This document shows, one piece after another, positions 37,083 to 48,004 of a stretch of 64,000 nt of DNA; position 1 is the first letter of the stretch, and each line of letters begins with the position of its first letter. The stretch lies in assembly GCF_002954265.1 (NCBI RefSeq), contig NZ_PPSL01000003.1, positions 1 through 64,000 of the forward strand, in the 5' to 3' direction. The notes beneath the pieces were generated by a model, which did not search any database, was not told the DNA's origin, and saw only the letters and a program-made list of their open reading frames with translations. The position numbers were made by a program, and so were the translations under genes. Origin of the DNA: Flavipsychrobacter stenotrophus (GTDB taxonomy: Bacteria > Bacteroidota > Bacteroidia > Chitinophagales > Chitinophagaceae).

Positions 37083-37107
37083 TTTTCGCGCAACCCGGTA
37101 ATATACG

Positions 37108-37134
37108 CGGCGGCCTTTGGCCGCCGTTTTTTTT
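37108..37134 (+). terminator. Rho-independent terminator after pepP
   Basis: CGGCGGCC-ttt-GGCCGCCG followed by eight T. Confidence 0.9.
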
Positions 37135-37208
37135 GTTTATAACATGTCTTGTATCTCGTTGCGCATTATCCCCTACAATTTTTCGGCCGCAACCCCTTTT
37201 AATCAAAA

Positions 37209-37237
37209 CCGGCGGCATAGCCGCCGGAAAATTTTTT
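37209..37237 (+). terminator. Second GC hairpin with T-run at the edge of the origin region
   Basis: CCGGCGGC-ata-GCCGCCGG (perfect 8-bp stem) then AAAA and seven T. It lies between pepP and the DnaA-box cluster and would stop readthrough into it. Confidence 0.65.
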
Positions 37238-37321
37238 TGAATTTTAGGTGTATTATATAAATAGATTTTCAGGCACGAAATTTATACCATATTGTTGTCT
37301 ACATTGGCTTTCAGACGCCTG

Positions 37322-37590
37322 TGTGGATAACTTTTTGAATTTTCACTGGGTTGTCCACAATACACTGGAAATATGTGGATTAGTGTGGGCTGTGTGGTGG
37401 CAAACTCGTTCATATTATAGCAGACAATAGTACATCAAAACACCTCATTTTTTTATCCTCACAGATTCCACGTTTACCCACACCCTTCTACGAAATTCAC
37501 AAAGATGTTTTTACTAACACCACAATTAATCCACAATTAACATTGCACCCGTTAAAATGCCCTATTTACTGCAATTTCACATGTGTATAA
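37322..37590. other. oriC: Candidate replication origin (DnaA-box cluster)
   Basis: In the 638-nt gene-free stretch 37083-37721 there are DnaA boxes: TGTGGATAA at 37322-37330 (perfect), TTGTCCACA 37351-37359, TGTGGATTA 37374-37382, TTATCCTCA 37453-37461, TTACCCACA 37474-37482, TAATCCACA 37527-37535 (each one mismatch) and TGTGTATAA 37582-37590 (matches TTATNCACA). AT-rich stretches lie on both sides (37231-37268, 37560-37721). No protein is encoded. The five parS sites 8-9 kb away support an origin-proximal location. Gene strand bias does not clearly switch here, and dnaA is absent. Confidence 0.6.
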
Positions 37591-37623
37591 ACTTTGGTTT
37601 AGTGTTGATAAAGTAAAGAAGTG

Positions 37624-37631
37624 TAATTTTG
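37624..37631 (+). promoter_or_regulatory. -7 promoter box TAATTTTG for nadA
   Basis: Perfect TAnnTTTG, 90 nt upstream of the ATG at 37722, at the edge of the candidate origin. Confidence 0.45.
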
Positions 37632-37721
37632 CAAGTGGGATAACTTTTATTATCCCCCTAATCCCCACTCCTAATAGTAATAGCCTTTTCTTTTAAATAA
37701 ATCTTTTAATTAGAATATATT

Positions 37722-38735
37722 ATGAATGTGCAAAACGTTTTGGAAGCCGAAGAATTAAATATGAAAGGTTTTCTTGATGTGGAAATTGATCCGTCACTTG
37801 ATCTGTTTGCGGAGATAGAAAAACTCAAAAAAGAAAAGAATGCTGTTATCCTGGCGCACTATTACCAGGAACCTGATATACAAGACATTGCAGATTATGT
37901 GGGAGATAGTTTAGGGTTGGCACAAAAGGCAGCGGCAACCGATGCAGACATAATTGTCTTTGCCGGCGTGCACTTTATGGCGGAGACAGCTAAAATACTT
38001 AATCCCAATAAAAAAGTACTGTTGCCTGATCTTAAAGCAGGTTGCTCACTGAGTGATAGTTGTCCTCCACCTTTATTTAAAGCATTTAAAGACAAACACC
38101 CTGATCATATAGTTATATCATACATCAACTGTTCTGCTGGTATTAAGGCTTTAAGTGATATCATTTGCACTTCATCCAACGCGCAGGCAATTGTAGAAAG
38201 TTTGCCAAAAGATCAGAAGATCATTTTTGCGCCGGATAAAAACCTGGGTGGCTACATTAATAAGCAGACTGGCCGTAATATGCTCTTATGGAATGGAGCT
38301 TGTATGGTGCATGAAATTTTTTCCAGAGAGAAAATGGTCAAACTAAAGGAACGTCACCCTCATGCGAAAATAGTTGCGCATCCGGAGTGTGAGGAGTCTG
38401 TACTGGAAGTTGCAGATTTTATTGGGTCAACTACTCAGATCCTGAAATTTACGGAGACCGACCCATGTCAGTGTTTTATTGTCGCTACAGAAACGGGCAT
38501 TTTACATAAGATGCAGCAGACAAATCCTGGTAAGACATTTATAGCCGCACCACCCGATAATTCATGCGCTTGTAATGACTGCCCCCACATGAAGCGCAAT
38601 ACACTGGAGAAGGTGTATATATGTATGAAGTACGAGCTTCCCGAGGTTACAATGGTTGAAGATCTGAGACTTGCTGCAAAGAAGCCTATACAGAGAATGT
38701 TGGACCTGAGTAAAGAATTGAATATTGGAGGATAG
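37722..38735 (+). CDS. nadA: Quinolinate synthase
   Basis: A 337-aa protein that condenses iminoaspartate with dihydroxyacetone phosphate to quinolinate, using a [4Fe-4S] cluster. Repeated substrate loops [30 protein letters not shown] and [16 protein letters not shown]; cluster Cys candidates in [23 protein letters not shown] and the C-terminal [10 protein letters not shown]. All conserved Cys are present. It starts a short distance right of the candidate origin and works with nadC (27712-28551); nadB is elsewhere. Confidence 0.95.
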
Positions 38736-45022: not shown

Positions 45023-45634
45023 TTAAGGAACGTAGAATGTTACGCCAAAGTTCAACCCGAAGTTTGTCTTGCCTTCTGAACTGATGACATGAAGTGATTC
45101 TGTGAGGTGAATTTTTGTATTGATCTCAATGTTTACTCCTTGTGTTATCAGTAAGCTGATTGGGCTTGACCCCTGCATTATCTTTATACCATCACCGTCT
45201 TTAACGAACATGTACTTCTGCGCATCAGGAACGATCATTGCTCCAAAGCCAAAGTAAGGTTGTATTTTACTCTTCTTAGGCAAGAGGTAATATTGAATAG
45301 ATACAGGTATGGAAACAAGGTTTCCCTTTCTTAGCGAGAGGCCATTGTTCCTGTTGCTGTTATTGGTGAGGAGATTGCTCATTGATAGATCAACCTCTGC
45401 GCGGAATTGATTGACAATAGGAAAGCCTACAGAGAAACCTGTTGATGATGTTTGTTTGTGTGCTGGGGTATTACTTCCTTTTGTTACATCAAAGAATGCT
45501 ACTCCTCTGTAGAAACCAATGCTGAAATCTTTAAGGAAATGCTTCTTGTACTTAGGGTGAGTTTTGCCAATGGCTACAGTGCCCATCAGGAGGATGGCAA
45601 CCACAAGCATTGATATGTATTTGAATGATTTCAT
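45023..45634 (-). CDS. Outer-membrane beta-barrel (porin-family) protein
   Basis: A 203-aa protein. Signal peptide about 1-24 (VAIGK). Alternating strands end in aromatic residues (IPVSIQYYLLPKKSKIQPYF, NFGLNFGVTFYVP), the usual pattern of small OMP_b-brl barrels of about eight strands. The final ...FYV-P fits an outer-membrane insertion signal. No specific ligand is suggested. It faces the parS cluster upstream. Confidence 0.75.
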   Translation of the reverse strand: MKSFKYISMLVVAILLMGTVAIGKTHPKYKKHFLKDFSIGFYRGVAFFDVTKGSNTPAHKQTSSTGFSVGFPIVNQFRAEVDLSMSNLLTNNSNRNNGLSLRKGNLVSIPVSIQYYLLPKKSKIQPYFGFGAMIVPDAQKYMFVKDGDGIKIMQGSSPISLLITQGVNIEINTKIHLTESLHVISSEGKTNFGLNFGVTFYVP

Positions 45635-45692
45635 TGGTATAGTAATATTAACGTTCTTCTTCTAATAATATTGTTAAAGCTTTGGAATTATT

Positions 45693-45708
45693 TGTTCCAC
45701 GTGGAACA
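45693..45708. other. parS: parS site 1
   Basis: TGTTCCACGTGGAACA, a perfect 16-bp palindrome matching the ParB-binding parS consensus TGTTnCACGTGnAACA. Confidence 0.85.
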
Positions 45709-45749
45709 ACTTCCTTTATGATTTCTATAACAAATTGTATGCCACACTA

Positions 45750-45765
45750 TGTTCCACGTGAAACA
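45750..45765. other. parS: parS site 2
   Basis: TGTTCCACGTGAAACA, the same motif with the G-to-A form seen in Bacillus; 57 bp from site 1 start to start. Confidence 0.85.
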
Positions 45766-45801
45766 ATGTCAGGGATCGTCTTGCTATTTGCAGGGTTGTA
45801 T

Positions 45802-45817
45802 TGTTCCACGTGGAACA
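45802..45817. other. parS: parS site 3
   Basis: TGTTCCACGTGGAACA, perfect palindrome, 52 bp from site 2. Confidence 0.85.
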
Positions 45818-45951
45818 TTAAGTGTCTCCAACATACTTAATAGTATAGTGGTGGTCCTGTACAAAAACTACTACCATCAGGTAGGAAAGGTTGGGTTATC
45901 TGTTGTGGGTTTTCCAATTCCAACTAGACGAATATACCTCGCTGTAATATT

Positions 45952-45977
45952 GTGCCTGCCTGCCGGTAGGCGTGGTT
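45952..45977. repeat. GCCTGCCGG-type intergenic palindrome
   Basis: GCCTGCCGGTAGGC is a near-perfect palindrome of a kind dispersed between genes in many Bacteroidota. No gene is seen from 45818 to 46080. Confidence 0.45.
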
Positions 45978-46080
45978 AGACAGTCTGATCATCACGTTAG
46001 CGATCTTACAAGTATATAGGCACTTCGGAAAGATCACCGTCGTCTTCCGGTATGGGATCACCGTGGCTATACCGCTATAG

Positions 46081-46096
46081 TGTTCCACGTGGAACA
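46081..46096. other. parS: parS site 4
   Basis: TGTTCCACGTGGAACA, perfect palindrome, ending 27 nt before the mnmG -7 box, so ParB bound here could affect mnmG transcription. Confidence 0.85.
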
Positions 46097-46123
46097 CAGG
46101 TGTTTTGTTTAGGGGATACGCTG

Positions 46124-46131
46124 TATCTTTG
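46124..46131 (+). promoter_or_regulatory. -7 promoter box TATCTTTG for mnmG
   Basis: Perfect TAnnTTTG ending 4 nt before the ATG at 46136; predicts a leaderless mRNA and settles the start. Confidence 0.65.
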
Positions 46132-46135
46132 CCCA

Positions 46136-48004
46136 ATGTTTCCTGAGTATGATGTAATAGTAGTAGGTGCCGGACATGCCGGTTGTGAGGCTGCGGCTGC
46201 GGCAGCCAATATGGGGTCTAAGGTTTTATTGGTAACAATGAACATGCAGACCATTGCACAGATGAGCTGCAACCCGGCCATGGGTGGTATTGCCAAAGGC
46301 CAGATAGTGCGTGAGATAGATGCCATGGGTGGCTATAGTGGTATTGTAAGTGATAAGAGTACTATCCAATTCCGTATGTTGAATAGGTCTAAGGGTCCGG
46401 GAATGTGGAGTCCTCGTTCGCAAAACGACCGTGCATTGTTTGCAACAACCTGGAGAAACATGCTGGAGCAGACACCCAATGTAGATTTCTGGCAGGATAT
46501 GGTGCAGGGATTGATTGTTTCACGTGGAACAATACAAGGCATTGTAACCGGAATGGGGCAGGAGATAAGAGCTAAATCTGTAGTACTCACCAACGGAACG
46601 TTCCTTAACGGAGTGATACATGTAGGGGAAAAGCAGTTTGGCGGAGGTAGAATGGGGGAGAAAGGTGCTACAGGAATAACCGAACAATTGGTTTCCCTAG
46701 GCTTTGAAAGTGACAGATTGAAGACAGGAACACCGCCAAGAATAGATGGACGCAGTCTTGATTACACAAAAATGGAACGTCAGGAAGGAGACGACGAAGT
46801 AGTTGGCTTCTCTTACCTGCCTATAGAAAAGGTAAAACCACAGAACCAACGTTGCTGTTGGATCACCTATACCAACCCTGAAGTACATGATATTTTGAAG
46901 ACAGGCTTCGGTCAGTCGCCAATGTACCAGGGTAGAATAAAGGGAAGTGGACCAAGATATTGCCCGAGCATTGAAGATAAGGTTACCCGTTTTGCCGAAA
47001 AAGAAAGGCATCAATTGTTTGTGGAACCTGAAGGTTGGGACACAGTAGAGATCTATGTGAATGGATTCAGCACTTCTTTACCTGAAGAAGTACAGTACAA
47101 AGCACTCACTATGGTGCCCGGTTTTGAGAAGGCTAAGTTCTTCCGTCCGGGCTATGCAATAGAATATGACTACTTTCCACCAACGCAATTGACCGCTACA
47201 CTGGAAACCAAACTGATAAAAAATCTCTTTTTCGCTGGTCAGATCAACGGAACTACAGGATATGAAGAGGCAGCTTGCCAGGGATTAATGGCCGGAATTA
47301 ATGCAAGCAGAAATGCTCATGAGCAGGAACCGGTAATTTTGAAGAGGAGTGACGCATACATTGGTGTGCTCATAGATGACCTTATTAGCAAGGGAACTGA
47401 TGAACCATACCGTATGTTTACCAGCCGCGCGGAGTACAGAACCATTCTGAGACAAGATAATGCAGATGTAAGATTGACTCCATTGGCTCATAGCATCGGG
47501 TTGGCATCTGACCAAAGGTTGGCATTGGTAAATGCGAAGCAAGGTGAAGTAGCGAGGGTGAAAAAAATAATGGAAGAGTTCAAAGCCGAGCCGGAAGCAT
47601 TCAATGAATTTTTGGAAAGCAACAACTCTTCACTACTCACAGAAAAATCAAAAGCACTAAAAGTGTTGCTCCGACCGAACATAGGGATCAAGGAAATGAT
47701 GGAATCTGTGCCCGATTTAAAGGCTTCTATAGGCGAATGTAGCCCACTGGTACTCGAGCAGGTTGAAATTATGGCCAAATATGCCACTTATATCGAAAAA
47801 GAGCACGAAATGGTCCAGAAAATGTCCAATTTAGAGGACTTAGCGATACCCGAGCACTTCAACTACGAAAAACTCACTGCCATGTCTATTGAGGCGCGAC
47901 AAAAGCTGATGAAAATAAAACCGAGGACAATTGGACAGGCAAGTCGCATAAGTGGAGTCAATCCAAGCGACGTGCAGATACTAATTGTTTATATGGGGAG
48001 ATAG
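46136..48004 (+). CDS. mnmG: tRNA uridine 5-carboxymethylaminomethyl enzyme MnmG (GidA)
   Basis: A 622-aa protein. With MnmE it modifies U34 of tRNAs, using FAD. N-terminal dinucleotide fold YDVIVVGAGHAGCEAAAAAA, GTFLNGVIHVG, GGRMGEKGATG, KTGTPPRIDGRSLDY and FFAGQINGTTGYEEAA; C-terminal GidA_assoc domain with QASRISGVNPSDVQILIVY. It starts at 46136 (MFPEYDVIVVG), not at an upstream ATG that would lie before the promoter. A fifth parS lies within codons about 128-132. In many bacteria gidA lies close to the origin; it fits the parS cluster here. Confidence 0.97.
   Translation: MFPEYDVIVVGAGHAGCEAAAAAANMGSKVLLVTMNMQTIAQMSCNPAMGGIAKGQIVREIDAMGGYSGIVSDKSTIQFRMLNRSKGPGMWSPRSQNDRALFATTWRNMLEQTPNVDFWQDMVQGLIVSRGTIQGIVTGMGQEIRAKSVVLTNGTFLNGVIHVGEKQFGGGRMGEKGATGITEQLVSLGFESDRLKTGTPPRIDGRSLDYTKMERQEGDDEVVGFSYLPIEKVKPQNQRCCWITYTNPEVHDILKTGFGQSPMYQGRIKGSGPRYCPSIEDKVTRFAEKERHQLFVEPEGWDTVEIYVNGFSTSLPEEVQYKALTMVPGFEKAKFFRPGYAIEYDYFPPTQLTATLETKLIKNLFFAGQINGTTGYEEAACQGLMAGINASRNAHEQEPVILKRSDAYIGVLIDDLISKGTDEPYRMFTSRAEYRTILRQDNADVRLTPLAHSIGLASDQRLALVNAKQGEVARVKKIMEEFKAEPEAFNEFLESNNSSLLTEKSKALKVLLRPNIGIKEMMESVPDLKASIGECSPLVLEQVEIMAKYATYIEKEHEMVQKMSNLEDLAIPEHFNYEKLTAMSIEARQKLMKIKPRTIGQASRISGVNPSDVQILIVYMGR
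46516..46531. other. parS: parS site 5, inside mnmG
   Basis: TGTTTCACGTGGAACA inside the mnmG coding sequence (encoding VSRGT). The palindromic core CACGTG is intact. Confidence 0.8.

Follow-up and report, generated by a model that had tools for sequence, protein, structure and literature searches.

A predicted chromosomal centromere (parS array) at mnmG in Flavipsychrobacter stenotrophus and its relatives among the Bacteroidota

Described partition systems and the present locus

Chromosomal ParAB-parS systems of the Spo0J/Soj type, as described in B. subtilis, Caulobacter and P. aeruginosa, are characterized by a 16-bp parS consensus and by clustering of the sites near the likely origin. The locus analyzed here resembles them in both respects, as well as in the presence of a canonical ParA and ParB, ScpA and an SMC-like frame in the genome. 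It differs from them in its mnmG address and in the 0.7-3.3 Mb that separate parS from parB and from dnaA in three single-contig relatives. According to the accessible part of a study of twelve bacteria of the gut, among them two Bacteroidetes, the origin was placed by parS clusters in combination with skew; it does not always follow dnaA, and dnaA can mislead (PMC10197239). Our locus is probably similar to those of the two species concerned, Bacteroides caecimuris and Muribaculum, in that parS clusters mark the origin, which need not be at dnaA. Unlike these two, for which the same part of the source gives no known condensin, the family studied here has ScpA (7/7 genomes tested); neither mnmG nor a site within it is named in that part of the account (PMC10197239).

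In the Flavobacteriaceae Mariniflexile and Algorimicrobium, an oriC was predicted by Ori-Finder next to mnmG (PMC11278836, PMC12843772), with the text and a figure legend of the former paper disagreeing on which label denotes oriC. The mnmG neighbourhood is shared with our locus, and parS goes unmentioned in the available portions of both papers; unlike in those origins, it is nadA that the DnaA boxes precede, at a distance of 4-9 kb from parS, in the window (the whole 64,000-nucleotide stretch of DNA that was analyzed) and in two relatives (G018, G022). A general rule of an origin at mnmG is weakened by two origins that lie elsewhere, as reported in excerpts of the respective papers: between dnaA and dnaN in Melioribacter, a member of the wider Bacteroidetes/Chlorobi group (PMC3534657), and, by skew, in dapB of the endosymbiont Blattabacterium, whose genome has no gidA (PMC2768785). 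Location of parS within coding sequence has a precedent in the intragenic parS1 and parS2 of P. aeruginosa (PMC5521831, in part); here, the position is conserved to the base within a clade and is accompanied by changed amino acids.

Thus, the sites themselves belong to a known kind and are ordinary examples of it. What is new, within the open-licence literature searched, is first the nearly phylum-wide mnmG address and second the protein-altering site that has been conserved. In the accessible parts of this literature we found no statement of a parS-mnmG link and no description of a fixed parS address or of a protein-altering copy; since the 2007 parS survey by Livny and others may list such sites, priority is not claimed. 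With a centromere address that seldom moves, the origin region of Bacteroidota, where dnaA can mislead, would be easy to locate; such an address also raises the question of what keeps parS at a gene for tRNA modification.

The five sites and their predicted partner proteins

The features of the mnmG region are as follows, with the parS sites obtained by a pattern search of both window and genome.

45023-45634, minus strand: OmpW-like gene (below the Pfam cut-off), followed by a 501-bp gap that holds the four upstream parS sites
45693-45708, no strand: parS 1, perfect palindrome TGTTCCACGTGGAACA
45750-45765, no strand: parS 2, TGTTCCACGTGAAACA, a hybrid and not a perfect palindrome
45802-45817, no strand: parS 3, perfect palindrome TGTTCCACGTGGAACA
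46081-46096, no strand: parS 4, perfect palindrome TGTTCCACGTGGAACA, 39 nt 5' of the mnmG start codon
46124-46131, plus strand: putative -7 promoter box, TATCTTTG, fitting what we take to be the Bacteroidota consensus TAnnTTTG
46136-48004, plus strand: mnmG (gidA), 622 aa, tRNA wobble-uridine modification enzyme (TIGR00136, 828 bits; Pfam GIDA)
46516-46531, no strand: parS 5, a hybrid inside mnmG, +380 from the start codon, codons GTT TCA CGT GGA ACA (V-S-R-G-T)

All five exact matches to the 16-mer TGTTnCACGTGnAACA claimed in an earlier note on this DNA (starting at 45693, 45750, 45802, 46081 and 46516) were recovered together with their spacings of 57, 52, 279 and 435 bp, and the number of perfect palindromes was corrected from four to three (45693, 45802 and 46081), the sites at 45750 and 46516 being hybrids. 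Because comparison with homologues puts the mnmG start at 46136, the described division into four upstream sites and one in the coding sequence holds; an alternative longer ORF from 46052 would include the site at 46081. The encoded MnmG shares 80-81% identity with its counterparts in 'Bacteroidetes bacterium 46-16' and 'Chitinophagaceae bacterium LGM1'.

The sites had been judged very unlikely to occur by chance and, indeed, the number of exact sites expected from base composition is 0.0003 for the window and 0.02 for the genome. A search of the whole 5.43-Mb assembly (5,429,324 bases, 21 contigs, 98.9% complete) returned these five sites as the only matches at ≤1 mismatch, and the reversed pattern gave two matches per strand in the same genome at the same threshold. 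At ≤3 mismatches, the window yielded the same five sites and nothing more; since at least five matches also occur at this threshold in 23 of 100 shuffles of the window, the strength of the cluster, all of which lies within 839 bp, is in the exactness of its 16-bp palindromic sites. A chance origin was rejected based on the base-composition arithmetic and on controls with the core motif GTTYCACGTGRAAC reversed (no match in any of the 60 genomes of the family; among 118 of the phylum, six with a single match on each strand).

Four terminator-like hairpins were found in 45600-46600 (shuffle mean 0.8), two of which are parS 1 and parS 4; these two are treated as a by-product of the palindromes. 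A sigma-70 type promoter scan of the same interval gave two candidates (shuffle mean 2.6). No tRNA genes were found in the window, and no Rfam families reached gathering score in 36.0-48.5 kb.

The absence of parA and parB next to the sites, remarked on in the earlier note, agrees with the location of the pair on another contig; the ParB homologue on which the reading of the sites depends is thus present, in canonical form and with an adjoining ParA:

L006 528-1331: ParA, directly upstream of parB, identified by sequence match
L006 1333-2283: ParB, 316 aa, with ParB_N, HTH_ParB and ParB_C domains and a GERRWRA stretch

This ParB is the single match in the genome (E ≤0.001; C13:216831; dnaA is on a further contig, C21). 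A CTP-binding motif, as expected of a cognate ParB, is recognized in it by sequence, with residue roles that we assume. Among solved structures, ParB, Spo0J and Noc chains come closest to it in sequence. Its recognition helix has ParB-type letters and aligns with ParB, not Noc, in the region whose residues presumably set ParB versus Noc specificity. A Noc nucleoid-occlusion system was rejected on these recognition residues, on a Noc score of 226 (cut-off 315) and on the sites being parS.

CACGTG is the core of other regulators' sites too, and ParB binding to the five sites is a prediction from sequence. Nevertheless, it is extremely improbable that the palindromes belong to another CACGTG-recognizing protein: the genome encodes one ParB above the family cut-off, a ParB was likewise detected in 58 of the 60 genomes sampled from the family, and the 16-mer fits the published parS consensus in the form in which the available text of PMC10197239 uses it.

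Overall, we read the sites as the chromosomal centromere (parS array) of a Bacteroidota ParABS system, situated near a likely origin upstream of nadA (probability about 0.93). The earlier interpretation as a partition centromere is strengthened by the uniqueness of the sites in the genome, by the ParA-ParB pair and by the presence of ScpA and of an SMC-like frame of 1198 aa. From the known system we infer that ParB produced from parAB, an operon far away, would load with CTP at all five sites, that its clamps would slide outwards over mnmG and probably the origin (spreading over some kilobases on each side would cover mnmG and perhaps the origin), that ParA would pull this ParB in segregation, and that ParB would load the SMC-ScpAB condensin.

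A search for ScpA in ten genomes was positive in eight, including all seven from the family. Two class relatives (G113 and G150) have parS at mnmG and gave no ScpA match; no full-length SMC-like frame was among the matches listed for them, and parS may therefore act there without SMC-ScpAB.

The mnmG address and the candidate origin

Sixty genomes of the family were drawn; 31 of them contain the full 16-mer and 46 the core. In these 46, mnmG is on the same contig and at most 2.5 kb away for 114 of the 117 core sites (for nine genomes, the count was taken from sites within their mnmG loci), and the three exceptions (two in G033, one in G053) are on contigs without mnmG in fragmented assemblies. 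The core is missing from 14 genomes, four of which also lack an mnmG match; seven of the other ten have a degenerate parS (1 to 3 mismatches) starting ≤120 bp before mnmG, and no such site was found within this distance in the remaining three (G034, G057 and G059).

A draw of 118 phylum genomes extended this pattern, with a core site in 111 and exactly two sites in 78 of these. MnmG was placed in 80 of the 113 phylum genomes beyond those already searched. Among 23 order/class genomes, 54 of 63 core sites, distributed over 21 genomes, are within 2.5 kb of mnmG; both genomes without a site at mnmG belong to one family (f2; families are known to us as codes, not names), and six further distant sites are located at a contig end of G082 (five) and in G128 (one). 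In 21 further families, each represented by one genome, a site within 2.5 kb of mnmG was found in 19 and no core site at this distance in f16 (G071) and f30 (G164); G062, G087 and G151 have additional sites elsewhere. Thus, 27 of the 30 sampled families include at least one genome with parS within 2.5 kb of mnmG, mostly just 5' of its start or just 3' of its stop. Among named mnmG loci (the best 80 of at least 588 confirmed), 52 have a core site within the retrieved flank, which is short in some; the other 28 often have titles that place them in the Saprospiraceae, Lewinellaceae or Spirosomataceae, lineages in which parS may have moved or changed. No core parS was seen at mnmG in G093, G120, G071 and G164 or in these Spirosomataceae and Saprospiraceae loci.

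An operator role of the upstream sites, with ParB at parS 4 repressing or tuning mnmG and segregation being secondary, was weighed against this background. Such a role would be in line with the distance of only 27 nt from parS 4 to the putative -7 box, which was as previously claimed, and with many relatives in which a site starts 8-80 nt before the mnmG start codon. ParB of P. aeruginosa, in the excerpted report, represses promoters next to intergenic parS3 and parS4, but at its native level leaves genes beside intragenic parS unaffected (PMC5521831), and in B. subtilis the loss of Spo0J left parS-adjacent genes unchanged, as the available text has it (PMC7022226). Moreover, the number of sites and their upstream position (-8 to -1709 relative to the start) vary widely, and of the 19 further families with parS at mnmG, eight are represented by a genome whose sites are all downstream of the gene. 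We therefore regard a primarily operator function as unlikely; regulation of mnmG by ParB, by analogy with P. aeruginosa, is possible in addition to the centromere function that we favour.

The candidate origin lies in the same window.

37083-37721, no strand: candidate oriC, an intergenic gap of 37% GC with eight DnaA-box-like 9-mers at 37322-37611
37722-38735, plus strand: nadA, directly 3' of the candidate oriC

The proposal that the array marks an origin-proximal region is supported by this cluster, 8.1 kb from parS, and by two relatives (G018 and G022), whose matching gene neighbourhood is near the skew minimum, not by the skew of the window. The eight words (≤1 mismatch to TTATCCACA; one of them exact) span 290 bp, and the densest 300 bp holds eight boxes as compared to at most four in 200 local Markov simulations; one of 200 permuted words, perhaps the identical one, also reached eight. 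GC skew changes no sign at the parS sites and is noisy in samples of the 1.05-Mb contig to which the window belongs, so that the skew of this genome gives no origin support either way.

In the single contig of G018, five exact boxes (2375680-2375887) directly precede nadA, the parS array (2371560-2371729) is about 4 kb from them, and the cumulative skew minimum of a joined 260-kb stretch (2385715) is 14 kb from parS. In that of G022, six boxes (640220-640516, in a stretch of 29% GC) likewise directly precede nadA, with the skew minimum of a joined 180-kb stretch at 640660 and parS (631313-631407) about 9 kb from the boxes. Other loci with sufficient sequence before nadA have six (G061), three (G035) and two (G136) boxes at 6.3, 2.9 and 7.3 kb from mnmG, respectively; in G055, the skew has more than one sign change and is ambiguous as to the origin. 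With the single contigs of G018, G022 and G055 taken as circular, the distance from parS is 1.8, 0.7 and 3.3 Mb for parB and 1.9, 1.4 and 3.0 Mb for dnaA.

The site inside mnmG

A core at exactly +380 of mnmG was found in 16 of 121 loci (15 without a near-copy). The carriers read V-S-R-G-T at this position, with V-P-R-G-T in G032 and V-S-R-E-T in three, and non-carriers mostly read V/I-K/E-D/N-G/N-K/R. In a quick MnmG tree (74 rows, two near-copies dropped, residues 122-138 left out; its outgroup rows are not monophyletic), 12 of the 13 rows of one clade carry the site, G001 being the exception. Three carriers fall outside this clade (G011, on a long branch, and G032 with L156), which implies three changes on the tree; either an early gain followed by losses or repeated gain would account for this history.

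The site could in principle have arisen accidentally from MnmG codons, or be a remnant, without DNA-level function, and its absence from the other 105 loci and from one clade member would fit such an explanation. We consider this very unlikely, as a 14-bp window of the site is kept in 11 of the 12 clade relatives of the window's genome, although their mnmG genes match ours at only 40-46% of third codon positions; no other of 1853 windows is kept in 10 or more of the 12, the tree was built without the residues concerned, and the reading of the site departs from the usual one. Given this retention despite third-position divergence, we read the in-gene site as being under selection on DNA and not on protein alone. 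It looks like a single DNA stretch serving as both centromere and protein code, with a visible protein change. Codon constancy among carriers only was dropped from the analysis as circular, the carriers having been chosen for the site.

A broader reading, for which as a whole we would give somewhat less than even odds, combines three propositions: (i) mnmG has been the address of parS since early in the phylum, with dnaA and parAB having moved and selection having put sites 5' and 3' of the gene in many families; (ii) one lineage acquired a parS within the coding sequence of MnmG and paid for it with altered amino acids; and (iii) MnmG expression and chromosome segregation may be functionally coupled, a suggestion that follows from strong selection for parS at mnmG.

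A second in-gene parS, at +1595 of mnmG, was observed in L065 and L156. The mnmG contig of L142 is labelled as a metagenome-assembled genome of Azovibrio restrictus (Pseudomonadota); its mnmG groups within the Bacteroidota clade of the window, and the contig is therefore probably misbinned. Finally, an ORF before mnmG in G018 (L230 11113-11586), which looks like ybeY, ends in ...SVPRGTKLR, which fits a parS read as the C-terminus of a protein.
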